DNA of 64,000 bases from Blastocatellia bacterium. GTDB taxonomy: Bacteria; Acidobacteriota; Blastocatellia; Chloracidobacteriales; JADJPF01. A model generated the notes under the pieces. The model was not told the DNA's origin. It saw nothing but the letters and a program-made list of their open reading frames with translations, and did not search any database. Shown here piece by piece: positions 30,776-63,535 of this stretch (its first letter is position 1; each line of letters starts with the position of its first letter). Made by a program: the position numbers and the translations under genes. The stretch covers positions 62,001 to 126,000 of the forward strand of contig JANWYG010000009.1 in the NCBI GenBank assembly GCA_025057015.1, written 5' to 3'.

Positions 30776-31345
30776 CTACTTCCTTGCAGGCCTCTTAGAC
30801 TTTACTTGCTCGAAATGTTCTTCGCTCAACATTTTTTCTGCTTTAAAGACGCTTACCAGCGCACTCTTCCAAGCTTCGTGTAGCACAGAATCCAAGAAGT
30901 AATACTCCTCGCCTGCCAAGACTAAGGTAGAACCTAGCGCATAGCGCTTTTTGACCTCTTCAAAAAGAGCAGGATCTTGCCTTCTGAACAGCTTCGAAGT
31001 AGCATCATTCCTTTTATCTAAGAGCCGACGTATAACAACTATATCATCTAGGGTAGCTGCTATATAGCTTCTAGACTTCTTGTCAGCATAGGATTCAGTC
31101 AAGGCTAGGAAGCGATTTACACTAGCTTCTGCATCGAGCAAATATTTTAGGAAATGCTCAACTGACTGTTTGTCATCAATCTTATAACTTCTCAGCTTGC
31201 GCAGTTGTCCTAAAACTTCTTCAGCAGAAGACTTGTATCTGCTCCAGTCTGACACTTCACTCTTCTTGTTACAGGCAAAAAAAAGCAAGGCGAGAAAAAG
31301 TACTAAGACAAGCTTCAACAAAAAGCTGTGAACTAGAACCAACAA
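30776..31345 (-). CDS. Small helical lipoprotein of unknown function
   Basis: The protein has up to 189 residues. The frame begins with TTG, and no ATG is present, so the exact start is uncertain. The signal ends in a lipobox (LALLFFACNKKS). The mature part is helical (SAEEVLGQLRKLRSYKIDDK; ALFEEVKKRYALGSTLVLAG). No family is recognised. It is upstream of the SH3 lipoprotein and behind a strong terminator, so it starts a separate operon. Confidence 0.55.
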   Translation of the reverse strand: MLVLVHSFLLKLVLVLFLALLFFACNKKSEVSDWSRYKSSAEEVLGQLRKLRSYKIDDKQSVEHFLKYLLDAEASVNRFLALTESYADKKSRSYIAATLDDIVVIRRLLDKRNDATSKLFRRQDPALFEEVKKRYALGSTLVLAGEEYYFLDSVLHEAWKSALVSVFKAEKMLSEEHFEQVKSKRPARK

Positions 31346-31380
31346 GTTACAGTAAGATAGATTACAAAAAGAAAATGCTA

Positions 31381-31404
31381 CCCTGCCCAGAAAGGTGGGC
31401 AGGG
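31381..31404 (-). terminator. Rho-independent terminator
   Basis: On the minus strand, CCCTGCCCA/TGGGCAGGG form a 9-bp stem with a 6-base loop, followed by TAGCATTTTCTTTTT. It ends the operon of small genes at 31411-35321. Confidence 0.85.
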
Positions 31405-31410
31405 CCTGTG

Positions 31411-31776
31411 TTACGCCAGGCGTTCAAGTATGCCGCGCAGCCGGCGGCTGAGTATTGGATCGTTTTGTGCAAAGTCAGATATAGTATCAAGCATAGTCTC
31501 CATGTCAATACGACTACGGACTTCAGGCCCTACTAGATTGGAAACTATAGCACGAGCTGCTTTATCTATAGCTACGCGAGACATAACAGAATTATTCATA
31601 TCTACAGATTTGACTATACTAGTAAGAGCAGAGCGTAGAGGCGAGACCGTCTTCAGGTCGGCTTTTTCGGCAACGGCATCAAGCGTTGCTTGAAAGTTTG
31701 CCCGATCCACACCGTGTGTATTGTCTGCAGTATAAGTTTCTATGTTAGGTATGTTAAATCTATTATCTATTTTCAT
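31411..31776 (-). CDS. Small soluble helical protein of unknown function
   Basis: The protein has 121 residues without a signal peptide or membrane segment. The first 35 residues look disordered (MKIDNRFNIPNIETYTADN) and the rest is helical (SALTSIVKSVDMNNSVMSR; MLDTISDFAQNDPILSRRL). A GGGGG box precedes the ATG. It is the last gene of the operon of small proteins. No family is recognised. Confidence 0.6.
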   Translation of the reverse strand: MKIDNRFNIPNIETYTADNTHGVDRANFQATLDAVAEKADLKTVSPLRSALTSIVKSVDMNNSVMSRVAIDKAARAIVSNLVGPEVRSRIDMETMLDTISDFAQNDPILSRRLRGILERLA

Positions 31777-31785
31777 GGCATCCCC

Positions 31786-32169
31786 CTAGGGCAGCACGTC
31801 CAATATAGCTTCTGCCATCTTGCCGAAAGCCCCTTCAGGATCGAGTTCGACGGCGCGTATTAATGCCTCACGCGCCCGATCGAACTCCTTCTTCATAAAG
31901 AAGGCTTCCCCAAGATGAGCATAAGCATAAGCGCTCTCTGGGTTCTTCTTGAGCGCTTCTTCGTAGATCTCGATACACTCGTCCAGCTTACCTTCTACAA
32001 AAAGAGTAGTTCCTATAGCGACTTGAGGGACTTCCGAGTTTGGCCTCAACAAAGAGACTCCTGTAAAAACTTCTCGTGCTTCCTCATATCTACCAGCATC
32101 TCTATAGATAAATCCTGCTTCCATAAGGAAATCTATCTCTTCCTGAGAAACCAGCGAAGTATCGAGCAT
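31786..32169 (-). CDS. Small TPR protein resembling type III secretion SycD-like chaperones
   Basis: The protein has 127 residues made almost entirely of three TPR units (AGFIYRDAGRYEEAREVFTG; VAIGTTLFVEGKLDECIEIY; AHLGEAFFMKKEFDRAREAL). Length and repeat number match SycD/LcrH class II chaperones, which also begin with a short helix, but generic TPR adaptors look the same. It lies between two small unknown proteins, with gaps of 9 and 12 bases. Confidence 0.6.
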   Translation of the reverse strand: MLDTSLVSQEEIDFLMEAGFIYRDAGRYEEAREVFTGVSLLRPNSEVPQVAIGTTLFVEGKLDECIEIYEEALKKNPESAYAYAHLGEAFFMKKEFDRAREALIRAVELDPEGAFGKMAEAILDVLP

Positions 32170-32181
32170 GCGCTACCTCTC

Positions 32182-32553
32182 TTACTTGACGTTTCTTATA
32201 GCCGACATAGATGCGTCGTGACGAGATTTGAGAATATTTGTCAGCACTTCGATCGTACGTGATTGCGATTGTATGCGCTCCTGCAGACTGATGAGCGCTA
32301 ACTGGTTCTGAAATTGCTGCTGCAAAGCATTCTCAGCAGCGACTGAATTGAGCGCCCTATTAGCCTGAGGATCATTCGGATTAACATTTCCAAGTCCGAG
32401 ATCTCCGTTACCTATGTTGTCTACGTTACTGGTAGAAGTGGTACCACCAAGATCAAATCCTGCACCGCTTGACCTGCGCGAAGCTGGACTACTAGCAATA
32501 GAACGAATGCTGCTTAGATCAAAAAAGCTATTGTTAATACCTTGTATCGCCAT
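32182..32553 (-). CDS. Small soluble protein of unknown function
   Basis: I start this at the ATG at 32553, because GGGAGG lies 6 bases before it; an upstream TTG at 32571 lacks one. The product has 123 residues: a Ser/Gly/Asn-rich first half (SSPASRRSSGAGFDLGG) and a helical, Gln-rich second half (AENALQQQFQNQLALISLQE, likely coiled coil). Low complexity plus a C-terminal coiled coil is seen in secreted or filament-forming substrates, but I recognise no family. Confidence 0.5.
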   Translation of the reverse strand: MAIQGINNSFFDLSSIRSIASSPASRRSSGAGFDLGGTTSTSNVDNIGNGDLGLGNVNPNDPQANRALNSVAAENALQQQFQNQLALISLQERIQSQSRTIEVLTNILKSRHDASMSAIRNVK

Positions 32554-32618
32554 TATTATCCTCCCAATCAACTTGCATTGTTTATCTTATTATCGGAAAG
32601 CTACACTGAAAGTTGCCT

Positions 32619-32930
32619 TTAGCTGCTCTTAAGCTTCGCTTTAACTTCAAGTAGCTCTGCTGCAAGCTGCATAGCCCGCCCGTAGGCATTCAGAATTTTC
32701 TGTGCATCTTCGGCATCTTGCCGTGTGCCACTGCGAACTACTCTATCAAATTCTATACATGAATTTTCGCACTTCCGAAAAATAGCCCCAAAGTTCTCTC
32801 GCTGCAGATATTTCTCGAAAACAGGATAGTGTCGCTCGAAAACAACTTCATCGGTTTGTTGCTGTTGCTGAGGCGCTTGCCTCATATACTGCCAGTCTCC
32901 TGCTTTAAACGCCTGAAATTTCTCACTCAT
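32619..32930 (-). CDS. Small soluble helical protein of unknown function
   Basis: The protein has 103 residues, no signal peptide, a Gln run near residue 20 (APQQQQQ) and two long helices (RHYPVFEKYLQRENFGAIFR; DAQKILNAYGRAMQLAAELL). GGAGAGCTT precedes the ATG. It lies 12 bases after the large TPR gene in the same operon. Confidence 0.55.
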   Translation of the reverse strand: MSEKFQAFKAGDWQYMRQAPQQQQQTDEVVFERHYPVFEKYLQRENFGAIFRKCENSCIEFDRVVRSGTRQDAEDAQKILNAYGRAMQLAAELLEVKAKLKSS

Positions 32931-32942
32931 AAGCTCTCTCCG

Positions 32943-34526
32943 CTACTTTAGTTGCCAACTTACTTCAAATGCTACCGAGTCAGTACCTTCATTTTCCACA
33001 GCCAATACTACAGTATACATATTTGCTTGAGAAGGCTGCTCTATCAACTGTATTTCAGACTTTCCTGATAACTTCCTAACTTTTGCCAATACCTCCTGAT
33101 GAGGCAAACCGTCAGTGCGTACCTTGACATCTGTAGGCTTGCCGCCTGACACCTGCTCAACATCTACAAACGGCCCTTGAACTCTCACTATAGCCCTACC
33201 GGTAATCTGCCCCGACCAACTTACGATGCCCTGGCGACGCAACTCCCACTCTATCTCAAAGCTCACTTCTTCTTCCTTCTTCGTATCGAGAGCAAACACA
33301 GCTGTGAAACCGTTCGTAGCATCAGGTGCCTCAACTTGCCGAACTACAGCAGTGCCAGTTAGACGTTTAAACCGCTTTATCAAATAAGGTACTTCTGGGA
33401 GCCGCTCACTTATCGAAGCTTTGCTTACATCCCCTTCTACGACAACGTTTTTGCCGCGCAGCTTGAGTTTGGTCACACCAGGTGCAACTCTGCAAACACA
33501 AACAGTTCTTCCTCTTGCTGGCAACGGAGGCCCAAGCCGCAGAGCTATTTCTTCTAACCTTTGCTTTATTTGCCCGTCCTCAACTAGGACGTCCATAGCT
33601 GCTTTATACTCGCGCTCCGCTTCTAAATACTTACGGTTCAGATAAAGCTGTTCACCCCTCTGCTTCTGATAATGTGCCTGCGCAATACGTAGTCCTTTCT
33701 TAGCCTGCTCATTATTCGGCTCTAAAGCTAGTACTTCGCGAAACTTAACTAACGCGTCTTCATATGCTCCATCAGACAGCTTGTTTTCAGCAAATTTCAA
33801 CGTCGCAGCTACATCAAGCTTAAGTAGCCCATCCAACGCTTTCTGGTTTTTAGGTTCATACTCTGTAACCCGCATAAAATATCTACGCGCAGCATCTTCG
33901 TTGCCTGCCACTAACTCCGCCTCGCCCAGTGCCAACAAGGCTCTTACCATCTTCTCGCGAGTTTCAGAATTACTAGATATCCTGAGCAGCTTTTCCAGAT
34001 ACTCTAACGCAACGTCATATTTTTGTTGAGACAAAGCAGCCTCTGCAAGATGCTTGTACAAAACCGGTACCTGCTCTATAGCCTTTACATCATTTGGCCT
34101 AAGCAGGAGTATCTGTTGGTACAAAGCTAATTCTTGAGCATAGGAGCCTTTCGGAAGATTTTTAACCTCTAAGTGAAGCTTAGCTACTTGCTGCTGCTTA
34201 TCTAACAGTTCTATAAGCTCAGGTGTAGCAGATTTGTCCTTACGGCGACGTGCAGCTTCATCAAGGTATTGCAGAGCTAAAGTATAATTGGTCGCATCTA
34301 TCAGCTCCGAGCTTTTTCTTATGTAATAGTCTAAAGGCTTGCCCTTAGGTACAACAGGCCCTCGACTCGAACTGCTGCCACTTCGCCCTCCAACTTTAGC
34401 CTTCTTATTATCAGGAACTACGTCTGCCGGCTGACTCCCTTTGCCTTTGCCCCTGCCTATTACAGGCCCTTCCTGCGCAACTGCTAGGTTACATACTACG
34501 AAAAACAACAGAAGCTGTATCTTCAT
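32943..34526 (-). CDS. Secreted TPR protein with C-terminal beta repeats
   Basis: The protein has 527 residues with signal peptide MKIQLLLFFVVCNLAVAQ. A Gly/Lys/Ser-rich linker precedes about six TPR units (65-325). The C-terminal 190 residues contain two related beta modules (ISERLPEVPYLIKRFKRLTG...VVRQVEAPDATNGFTAVFAL and VLAKVRKLSGKSEIQLIEQP...NMYTVVLAV), each ending in a 'V.FE..W.L' strand. No enzyme motif is visible. It may be a periplasmic scaffold for the small proteins encoded behind it. Confidence 0.7.
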   Translation of the reverse strand: MKIQLLLFFVVCNLAVAQEGPVIGRGKGKGSQPADVVPDNKKAKVGGRSGSSSSRGPVVPKGKPLDYYIRKSSELIDATNYTLALQYLDEAARRRKDKSATPELIELLDKQQQVAKLHLEVKNLPKGSYAQELALYQQILLLRPNDVKAIEQVPVLYKHLAEAALSQQKYDVALEYLEKLLRISSNSETREKMVRALLALGEAELVAGNEDAARRYFMRVTEYEPKNQKALDGLLKLDVAATLKFAENKLSDGAYEDALVKFREVLALEPNNEQAKKGLRIAQAHYQKQRGEQLYLNRKYLEAEREYKAAMDVLVEDGQIKQRLEEIALRLGPPLPARGRTVCVCRVAPGVTKLKLRGKNVVVEGDVSKASISERLPEVPYLIKRFKRLTGTAVVRQVEAPDATNGFTAVFALDTKKEEEVSFEIEWELRRQGIVSWSGQITGRAIVRVQGPFVDVEQVSGGKPTDVKVRTDGLPHQEVLAKVRKLSGKSEIQLIEQPSQANMYTVVLAVENEGTDSVAFEVSWQLK

Positions 34527-34589
34527 AGATAGCCGTACATCCCAAAAAGAACTCTAACAACAAGTCAAAATTAAAAGCCCTCCACTCAG

Positions 34590-35321
34590 TCAAGGCCTCA
34601 ATATCCAAAACCAGAAAAATATTCCTATCCCCAACAAAGCAGTAAATATGCTGGCTGCTAACAGAGCCTTCTCCGTAGCAGTAAGACCAAGGTGAGTCTG
34701 GGGTACGTACGTCAAGAACTTCGGAAGAACTAGCTGCTGCTGAGAGCTGCCTAGAACGCTCAAACATGTAGGCTCACCATCGGCATCCATCTCAAACAGC
34801 TTATCTAGCTTAGGCACTTCACTCAGCTTAGGCACCTCTTCTGTTGGTTCTTCCTCGCTTCCCGCAGCAGGGGCAGTACTTTCTGAAGAAGTCAGTACCG
34901 GTACTTCAGCTGTCTTTTCAAGCTCTTCTTCCTGCTGCTTTTCGAAGTCATCAAAAATCCTCTTCCGAACCGACGGCGGCAACTGCGCAGTATGCTCCAA
35001 ATCACAGTCACCATTCTGAGAAAGTTCTTCCTTATCAACATCTACAGAATCCGCAGAATCCCCAGGAAAGTCTTGCACCTCAACAGACACTGACTCTGCC
35101 TTAACTTTGTCAGAAGGTGATATAGCCTCAGAACCAACCGTATCTGGTAGAACCACGGCCTCAGACTCGCTACAAAGCCCGGCCCCAAAAACAGCCATAG
35201 CTTGTTCAGCCACAACAGGTTGCAAGACAGCAGACCGTTTCGGCGGCGGTAATACTCGACCACAACTTCTGCAAAATTTTTTTCCTTCCCTATTCTGAGT
35301 ACCACAGAACGGACAGAACAT
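34590..35321 (-). CDS. Zinc-ribbon membrane protein with acidic linker
   Basis: I use the ATG at 35321, preceded by AGGCAAGAAG, giving 243 residues. The N-terminus is a zinc ribbon (MFCPFCGTQN...KFCRSCGRVLPPP, four Cys). Next come about 170 residues of acidic, low-complexity linker (Glu/Ser/Pro rich). One C-terminal membrane helix ends the protein (AASIFTALLGIGIFFWFWIL). The layout suggests a tail-anchored cytoplasmic protein. It is the first gene of the operon. Confidence 0.6.
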   Translation of the reverse strand: MFCPFCGTQNREGKKFCRSCGRVLPPPKRSAVLQPVVAEQAMAVFGAGLCSESEAVVLPDTVGSEAISPSDKVKAESVSVEVQDFPGDSADSVDVDKEELSQNGDCDLEHTAQLPPSVRKRIFDDFEKQQEEELEKTAEVPVLTSSESTAPAAGSEEEPTEEVPKLSEVPKLDKLFEMDADGEPTCLSVLGSSQQQLVLPKFLTYVPQTHLGLTATEKALLAASIFTALLGIGIFFWFWILRP

Positions 35322-61637: not shown

Positions 61638-63535
61638 AAGGCACTCACTTCAACTTTGATTATTCCATTCATAGTACCTATATAGAGCTGAGAAGATTTT
61701 CTCGCTATAGCGGTAACGTTACCCGAAGGAAGGCCACTACGTAGCCTCTTCCACCGTCGGGTCACAAGATCCATTATCCACAGCCCATCATCGAGAGTAC
61801 CTACATAAAGTCGAGCTTCATCAGATACTATAGCATTAAAGTTTACTTCACATCGGCCTAGTTCAAGCGTTTTTATTCCATTCTCATCAAGTACACTAAT
61901 GCCGCCGCCATAAGTACCTATGTAGAGACGGTCTGCTACTGCAAGCAAGGCAGTTATCCAATTTGCAGCAAGTGGCGAATTAAAAGTCGAATAAGTCTTT
62001 ACAATTCGCCCATACTCAAACACTGCTAGTCCGCCTAAAGTAGCTACATATAGCTTGTTGTCAAATTCACAAGCAGCATACACGCTGCTAGACGCAAGAC
62101 CATTCAGTGTAGTGTAATTCCTAAAACCACTTTTCTGTCCTATACTCAAGCCTGCGGCAGTAGATAATGCTAACAGCTTTCTTGCTGCTGAGTCTGGATA
62201 TGCAGCCATCACTCTTGAAGATATTAAGCCGATGCTGACAATGTTTTTAGAGATGATACCATCTGACTGGTTTAGCAAAGTACGCTGCAACTGTTCGTCA
62301 AAGATGACAAGGCCGGCAGAAGTCGCAACAAACATTCTTTTACTTTCTCTATCCCATAACAAAGCGTTTACTTCCCTCACATACTCATCCTCTATGTGCT
62401 TCACAGAGTTACCACTGAAAATGTCGAGTCCTTTTGAAAAGTAACCTATCCATATCCTTTCTTGTTCATCTACGGCAAGAGAAGTAATGGCATTATCGCT
62501 AATGGTCAAGTCAGGTAGTTGCAGTCTAGTAAAGTGCAACTTTCCTTGCGGCGTATTCGTAGCTATCCAGCTACCTTGGTTGCTTAGCAGCACAAGTTGA
62601 TTGTCTAGGGCAAGCAGCTTACAGGTTGAAGTTTTTGGCCAAGGATGGTCTATCGGCGTGAAAGTCTCTACTGGTCGATCTAGCTCAAAACTGAATAGCT
62701 CTCCGGTATCTCTCAGTAGATAACCTCTATTAGCAAATATGGCAAACGAAGCTAAGCTTGGCAAGGTAACAAGTGGCACAGCGCGATTACTATCTGCAAC
62801 GACTTCGGCAAGTCCCATATCAGTTGCCACAAATACCCTGTTTTCAGAGGCGATTATAGAAACGACGCGTTCTGACTGCAGTCCTTCTTGCCGACCATAG
62901 CTTAGTGTGTACCCGTGTCGTCTGACGATCAGTCCATCGGCGAAGGTGCCAAAGTAACCCGTGCCGTATGATTCGGCCACAGCTGTAAAAAGGCCTTTTA
63001 CAGCTTCGCAGCGAAAATTTTCGCCATCATAAGCAAACAGGCCTGAACCAGCTATATACAGCTGGCCGTTGATTACCTGCAAGGAGTTTATGCGCTGCAA
63101 TTTACGCTTGAGACGGTATTCTCGCAGCGTTTTTCTGTCATATGACATCAGGTATCCTTCGGCGCTACCGAAGAACAGCTGTGAGTTATACACTGCAAGG
63201 CAGGTAAGATCGTTGCTTGGGAGGCCATCGAGAGAAGTTACTGTTTGACGAACGGAAAAGTCCTTATCTAGTTCCAGCAGGCCGGCGGCAGTTGCTGCCC
63301 ATAAACTACCGTCATACCAAGCCAGCGCTCTCACTTCCTTGCGAGCAAGTAGCCCAGCTTTGCTCAACAAGTCTGAAGGACGGAGTTCTACAATTTCGCA
63401 CTCTAGGTAGTCATCCTCAACCTGAAGCTTGGTAATAGCCCTTTTTGCTTTGAAATAAGTCGCAATGGTCCAACCTAGCAAAGACAAGAGCAAGAAAAGG
63501 ATAAGATAGCTTGCAAGCTTTTTGAAAGCAGGCAT
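61634..63535 (-). CDS. Membrane-anchored beta-propeller sensor-like protein
   Basis: The protein has 633 residues. One N-terminal membrane helix (about 8-27, YLILFLLLSLLGWTIATYF) anchors a periplasmic domain of repeated propeller blades, such as VRALAWYDGSLWAATAAGLLEL, ITSLAVDEQERIWIGYFSKGLDIF and VTAIARKSSQLYIGTMNGII. These are the two-component-regulator propeller repeats, but no histidine kinase or other output domain is present. It may bind a carbohydrate or a partner from this operon. Its end overlaps the VIT-VWA start. Confidence 0.82.
   Translation of the reverse strand: MPAFKKLASYLILFLLLSLLGWTIATYFKAKRAITKLQVEDDYLECEIVELRPSDLLSKAGLLARKEVRALAWYDGSLWAATAAGLLELDKDFSVRQTVTSLDGLPSNDLTCLAVYNSQLFFGSAEGYLMSYDRKTLREYRLKRKLQRINSLQVINGQLYIAGSGLFAYDGENFRCEAVKGLFTAVAESYGTGYFGTFADGLIVRRHGYTLSYGRQEGLQSERVVSIIASENRVFVATDMGLAEVVADSNRAVPLVTLPSLASFAIFANRGYLLRDTGELFSFELDRPVETFTPIDHPWPKTSTCKLLALDNQLVLLSNQGSWIATNTPQGKLHFTRLQLPDLTISDNAITSLAVDEQERIWIGYFSKGLDIFSGNSVKHIEDEYVREVNALLWDRESKRMFVATSAGLVIFDEQLQRTLLNQSDGIISKNIVSIGLISSRVMAAYPDSAARKLLALSTAAGLSIGQKSGFRNYTTLNGLASSSVYAACEFDNKLYVATLGGLAVFEYGRIVKTYSTFNSPLAANWITALLAVADRLYIGTYGGGISVLDENGIKTLELGRCEVNFNAIVSDEARLYVGTLDDGLWIMDLVTRRWKRLRSGLPSGNVTAIARKSSQLYIGTMNGIIKVEVSAL

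Follow-up and report, generated by a model that had tools for sequence, protein, structure and literature searches.

The 64,000-nucleotide stretch analysed here, hereafter the window, covers positions 62,001 to 126,000 of contig JANWYG010000009.1 of a Blastocatellia bacterium (G000:C10:62001-126000), whose genome of 3.33 Mb is assembled in 23 contigs. Four consecutive genes of an operon on its minus strand most probably constitute the needle module of a secretin-less, non-flagellar type III secretion system (T3SS) of the myxobacterial kind. These are p103 (32619-32930), a small protein whose position makes it putatively SctE-like and a putative needle-subunit co-chaperone; p123 (32182-32553), a SctF/HrpA-like needle candidate with the C-terminal signature LKSRHD...N; TPR127 (31786-32169), a putative tetratricopeptide repeat (TPR) chaperone of the SctG/LcrH type; and p121 (31411-31776), the fourth gene of the module, which lies directly before SctU in Chloracidobacterium and in genome G019. 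Relatives show the module, in constant gene order, linked to T3SS core genes, and the genome itself carries a T3SS core on other contigs. The candidacy of p123 as the needle subunit draws on its position, its chaperone neighbours, co-occurrence and blind profile scans taken together, no single match being strong.

In Acidobacteriota, the p123 family co-occurs with SctV of the injectisome type. Among 58 genomes, including that of the window, 13 contain a match to the p123 profile, and SctV scores above cut-off in 11 of these and at 669 bits, below the cut-off of 692, in a twelfth (G017). None of the 45 genomes lacking p123 has SctV above cut-off; four give lower matches, three of which fall in a flagellar-like group of the SctV tree. 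With G017 counted, 12 genomes have both p123 and SctV, one has p123 only and 45 have neither (Fisher 1.5e-11); the strict cut-off gives 11, two and 45 (3e-10), and any match to the SctV model gives 12 with both, one with p123 only, four with SctV only and 41 with neither (2e-8), all values being optimistic because related genomes are not independent. Both p103 and p121 occur in 12 of the 58 genomes each, namely the p123 genomes minus G017. Within genus g13, G019 has both p123 and SctV and nine other genomes have neither. The gene order in Chloracidobacterium is p103-p123-TPR-p121-SctU; in G019, p103-p123-TPR stands beside SctD-like, SctV, SctJ, SctK-like, SctL and SctN genes, with p121-SctU on another contig, and SctU of G017 is immediately preceded by a p123-like gene.

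When 84,980 named genomes were scanned with the pattern [TS]N[ILV][LM]K[SA]RHD, 67 loci of the p123 family (RHD genes) were obtained, most of them in Myxococcota. At the head of a long cluster in Myxococcaceae we observed the same four genes in the same order, p103-RHD-TPR-p121-sigma-SctI-J-K-L-N-O-P-Q-R-S-T-U, in all seven clusters read (Citreicoccus L237/L238, M. qinghaiensis L239/L240 and five genomes of the same genus, L246-L250; SctK is unmatched in L246). In the three cases read of a second T3SS locus (L223, L251, L252), SctI-SctJ are immediately preceded by a separate RHD gene. All these regions were chosen for containing an RHD gene or the SctV gene from an RHD genome. The RHD gene is present in 27 of 27 genomes of the M. 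qinghaiensis genus, none of them identified as M. xanthus, and its presence in M. xanthus itself is an inference. Profile searches of the 67 loci detected TPR127-type relatives in 27, of which 26 begin 5-119 bases after the p123-family gene, as well as p103-like open reading frames (ORFs) in 26 and p121-like ones in 49, with the qualification that the profiles used (A7, A8 and TPRg) draw in part on these loci and that distances refer to first-start ORFs; the background of 881 distant ORFs contained no p103-like, no p121-like and two TPR relatives. In both Chloracidobacterium and Myxococcaceae, p103 homologues immediately precede the p123-family gene. From 50 of the 67 loci submitted, 49 motif genomes were searched (L157 was left out), and 45 of these contain a SctV/FlhA-type match, 19 above the SctV cut-off, although some of the matches may be FlhA. 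In a quick SctV tree built from 53 rows (L184, L188, L189 and L206 left out), for which support was calculated as SH-aLRT only, nine Blastocatellia rows, the SctV of the window's own genome among them, form one group (100) next to six Myxococcaceae rows (95); the position of the canonical systems is not firm (87, drawn open).

The export gate of the window's genome is of the injectisome type. SctV, the only FHIPEP gene found, lies on contig C15 and reaches 817.6 bits against the SctV model, for a cut-off of 692, and its FlhA score of 682 bits falls short of the cut-off of 772; directly upstream of it is a gene for a 171-residue TPR protein that shares 37% identity with TPR127 across 111 residues. 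SctU on contig C8 reaches 371.5 bits for a T3SS cut-off of 358, and its FlhB score of 328 falls below the cut-off of 349. Since SctV and SctU thus score as injectisome type, a flagellar origin was rejected. SctJ and SctN are also on C8 by Pfam (SctJ above the Pfam cut-off); SctN exceeds the T3SS and FliI_clade2 cut-offs, SctR exceeds the T3SS cut-off and also a flagellar one, and SctQ, with 100.2 bits against a cut-off of 100.8, is 0.6 short. Read along one strand, the C8 run comprises a FliA-like sigma factor, SctI, SctJ, SctK-like, SctL, SctN, SctO-like and SctP-like genes, followed by an FHA-containing SctQ, FliO-like, SctR, SctS, SctT and SctU genes and those for a 166-residue protein, a TPR protein and a 199-residue protein; SctJ, N, Q, R and U rest on profile matches, and K, L, O, P, S and T on reading. 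The SctI candidate (190 residues) has a rod-like C-terminus and matches the Pfam rod model only at 0.05. No needle gene was recognised on reading the C8 T3SS stretch, and no dedicated secretin SctC was found above cut-off in any of eight Blastocatellia genomes, sub-cut-off SctC matches turning up in 6 of 14 control genomes too. A preliminary description of the operon had noted the absence of a secretion ATPase or ring gene, which is explained by the location of SctN and SctJ (C8) and SctV (C15) on other contigs, and had suggested a new module for envelope assembly or export. With the T3SS core encoded in the genome and the four genes linked to T3SS, we read them as a T3SS needle module rather than a new export module.

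The chaperone neighbours point in the same direction. TPR127 matches the NCBIfam models LcrH_SycD (1e-10), CdsG (1e-9) and SctY (4e-5), all below cut-offs, and also HrpB1_HrpK (8e-4); its resemblance to type III secretion chaperones had been recognised in the preliminary description, as had the association of the small genes beside it with a secretion system, and both are borne out, the latter by relatives that adjoin T3SS genes. No T3SS family was matched by p121 relatives in a Pfam scan. For p103 and p121, identity with SctE, SctX or SctH was considered and is supported by no model.

In order to assess p123 at the family level, an alignment of 53 rows (A6) was compiled from the window protein, two copies from Chloracidobacterium, an 83-residue gene of G019 and 49 of the 67 loci, the other 18 being left out as partial, near-identical or doubtful. 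In a blind Pfam scan of these members, T3SS_needle_F (PF09392) was the top family with 15 matches, followed by a family with three; in the corresponding NCBIfam scan, SctF (TIGR02105) was matched by 11, the HrpA pilin (NF053530) by 10 and the next model by five. The best E-values were 2e-4 for PF09392, 3e-3 for TIGR02105 and 2e-5 for NF053530. The needle match of the Citreicoccus protein spans residues 145-184 of 187 and profile positions 30-69 of 71, placing it at the C-terminal end, and the G019 copy scores 20.9 bits with the HrpA pilin model (cut-off 34). As the loci were found by the search pattern, the conservation of A6 at the pattern positions is in part a product of the selection; Q91 and N121 are not among these positions. 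The window protein has 123 residues from an ATG start, a TTG 18 bases upstream being possible, and the myxobacterial copies have about 190; the first half of p123 is rich in Gly, Ala and Ser and disordered in the AlphaFold model. The genome contains a second, weak match to the p123 profile at C8:83319-83600 (E 0.0015).

Several observations weigh against the assignment of these four genes to a needle module. The matches to needle models are weak, with E-values up to 0.1 and, wherever bit scores were shown, below the curated cut-off, and the window p123 itself matches no T3SS model in Pfam or NCBIfam. AlphaFold predicts for p123 one helix (residues 62-122; predicted local distance difference test score, pLDDT, 63, with residues 1-51 below 50), so that the helix-turn-helix of needle subunits is not seen; Foldseek with this model returned no PDB match, and PDB sequence searches gave chance-level matches only. 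Ten relatives of p103 matched no T3SS family in Pfam, and no SctE model was matched. LcrH-type chaperones usually serve translocators. At the genome level, G010 has p123, p103 and p121 and no SctV match, and G017 has its p123-like gene without p103 or p121, its SctV being the one below cut-off. Considering the DNA at the locus, a strict core T3SS gene is present in only 21 of the 67 loci, the RHD-p121 pair of Polyangia has no T3SS genes within 8 kb, though a SctV/FlhA-type gene is present in most of these genomes, and four of the 49 motif genomes have no SctV/FlhA-type match at all.

As an alternative, p123 might be another T3SS substrate, translocator- or tip-like, served by a class-II LcrH-type chaperone, with the real needle being another small protein such as the product of 73-residue tandem genes in Citreicoccus, that of the 83-residue G019 gene or a relative of the C8 199-residue protein. 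The best match of TPR127 is indeed LcrH_SycD, SseC and SctB2 are each matched by one A6 member, a similar C-terminus is found in short proteins (L238:346-567 and 808-1044; L040:3564-3815), and the genome has the second profile match at C8:83319-83600. We nevertheless consider this explanation unlikely: needle models match 15 and 11 of the 53 members and translocator models one each, the RHD gene precedes SctI-SctJ in the second loci, and the three short proteins scanned match no needle model. As an observation in its own right, the 73-residue Citreicoccus genes are near-identical, lie in tandem between SctU and SctV, end in TNLMKKMDEMAKAAIGNLK, a second needle-like C-terminus in this cluster, and have no Pfam match. 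The G019 protein (L040:3564-3815, 83 residues) and a Chloracidobacterium protein of 69 residues (L063:1450-1659) have a related C-terminus and are encoded beside TPR chaperone genes and also near possible translocator-like genes.

The needle-module reading can be rationalised by comparison with the Ysc system, in which the needle genes are ordered yscE-yscF-yscG. Like these, the window genes encode a small protein, a needle candidate and a TPR protein, followed in myxobacteria by p121, the sigma factor and SctI, J, K and L. Unlike in Ysc, p103 matches no SctE model, and p123, at 123 residues and with its Gly/Ala/Ser-rich first half, differs from a Ysc-type needle subunit of roughly 80 residues. 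HrpA pilins are a second point of likeness through the ten NF053530 matches and two PF09589 matches among the 53 members; these are weak, and no secretin was found for the p123 system, unlike in HrpA systems. YscE and YscG hold YscF, and by analogy p103 and TPR127 would retain p123 in the cytosol by its C-terminal helix and thereby prevent early polymerisation. Once the ring (SctJ), the rod (SctI) and the export gate (SctRSTUV) are assembled, the SctN/SctV machine would export p123, which would then polymerise on the rod. The p121 protein, whose gene adjoins SctU in several genomes, could be an early substrate or a switch factor, and the filament might end in the periplasm or exit via the channel of another system, for example a Tad or type IV pilus secretin.

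The known system closest to the one proposed here is the T3SS* of myxobacteria, MXAN_2434-2464 (PMC10433427, PMC12075869), the 'Myxo' non-flagellar T3SS (NF-T3SS) of Abby and Rocha (PMC3459982). The likeness includes the module at the cluster head in Myxococcus relatives, the grouping of the SctV proteins and the lack of a secretin above the SctC cut-off in the eight Blastocatellia genomes; the window differs in that its module shares no contig with the core or SctV and is preceded by a zinc-ribbon gene and a gene for a secreted TPR protein. Abby and Rocha (2012) described Myxo systems without secretin and SctF, inferred a loss of SctF and listed Acidobacteriota with flagella and no NF-T3SS (PMC3459982). 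In later papers, the myxobacterial system is termed 'needleless' or 'needle-less' (reviews of 2023, PMC10433427, and 2024, PMC10849154; studies of 2024, PMC11509652, and 2025, PMC12075869), and needle, secretin and translocon are stated to be absent from it (PMC3459982, PMC12075869, PMC10849154, PMC10433427). The current model has Tad-pilus tips substitute for the T3SS* needle (PMC12075869). Within the accessible portion of the open-licence literature, we found neither a T3SS* needle nor a T3SS in Blastocatellia named. We hypothesise, with somewhat less than even confidence, that the secretin-less T3SS lineage, including the T3SS* used by Myxococcus in predation, is not needleless and that an RHD filament crosses the periplasm to hand cargo to a Tad or type IV pilus outer-membrane channel. 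With a conserved needle candidate and its chaperones heading the T3SS* cluster, the open question of how substrates exit becomes testable through one gene. For the origin of injectisomes, our data suggest that SctF was missed, not lost, in the Myxo lineage, and if an RHD filament does use a borrowed channel, the ancestral injectisome would have had a needle before a secretin. The module also extends this kind of T3SS to free-living members of the Acidobacteriota (Blastocatellia, Chloracidobacterium).

Upstream of the four genes, the operon encodes a zinc-ribbon tail-anchored protein with an acidic linker (34590-35321; 243 residues from ATG; PF13240, 2e-7), in which sequence reading places a C-terminal hydrophobic stretch, and TPR527 (32943-34526), a secreted TPR protein with C-terminal beta domains. 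Pfam detects TPR motifs in TPR527, as in TPR127; the predicted model of TPR527 (pLDDT 75.7) has helices at 65-331 and then 14 beta strands at 337-526, and its top Foldseek rows are TPR proteins. Its C-terminal domain, mostly as the last 95 residues, occurs in 41 of the 58 genomes, 29 of them without p123, and TPR527 was therefore rejected as a T3SS-specific part. Membership of this pair in the T3SS module is unproven, and the two genes may share only the promoter with it. The pair, in the same operon and with no shown T3SS link, is what speaks for the alternative of a new module for envelope assembly or export with no relation to T3SS; this is very improbable, as relatives of the other four genes adjoin T3SS genes elsewhere, and it was rejected on account of the T3SS core found elsewhere in the genome. 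Least probable is a decaying, functionless T3SS remnant, for which one could cite the spread of T3SS genes over three large contigs (C8, C10, C15) and the missing SctC-type secretin above cut-off, since the SctV, TPR127 and p123 frames are open without internal stops, the gene order is kept in the same family and the gene is retained throughout a distant genus (27/27).

The six genes, all on the minus strand, are separated from zinc-ribbon gene to p121 by 63, 12, 65, 12 and 9 bases, and probably share one transcript. A terminator-like stem-loop (31380-31405) with 10 pairs, seven of them G-C, and a T-rich tail closes the operon; it has the longest stem among eight terminator-like sites in the 9.5 kb scanned, a number not above chance given 7.3 (standard deviation 3.0) in shuffles. 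No sigma70-type site was listed ahead of 35321, the 5' end of the operon, and no FliA-type promoter consensus was present within the 64-kb window. The six-gene order is kept in 3/3 copies from the same family (L036, L037 and L038, the first gene of L036 being cut by the contig end). That description's single operon of six genes, its terminator at 31381-31404, its zinc ribbon and its TPR protein with beta repeats all agree with these data. It had also called the small proteins helical, which holds for the modelled C-terminal helix of p123, the only one of the three that was modelled; Pfam gave no convincing match for p103, p123 or p121. In the acidic linker of the zinc-ribbon protein (34590-35321) and its relatives, repeated [DE][DE][IVM]P[VIL]L motifs could be docking motifs. 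Downstream of the operon lies a lipoprotein gene (30776-31345; Trep_dent_lipo, 3e-4), with a relative seen by eye in the corresponding position of L037 and L038.

Further features were noted along the way. The FHA domain is normally part of SctD, and the C8 gene L078:13356-14918 encodes an unusual fusion in which an FHA domain forms the N-terminus of a SctQ-like protein. A protein of about 160 residues follows SctU in both the window's genome (L078:9495-9995) and Citreicoccus (L238:2326-2805) with a similar C-terminus and may be a conserved T3SS gene. On contig C13, a 384-residue protein is followed by a 179-residue LcrH-like TPR protein (L035:7291-9285), a candidate T3SS substrate and chaperone off the core cluster, and on C15 about 17 kb of N precede the SctV region (L033:1 to about 17000). 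A fragment labelled Melainabacteria (L118, JAHFBD010000092.1) is C-terminally identical to Blastocatellia L117 from the same sampling series and probably reflects a binning error. Finally, in G019 a CdiI-type immunity protein (L039:10396-10773; PF18593, 1.4e-11) is encoded beside the needle-module TPR chaperone, and with the adjacent 527-residue protein it possibly forms an antibacterial T3SS effector/immunity pair.

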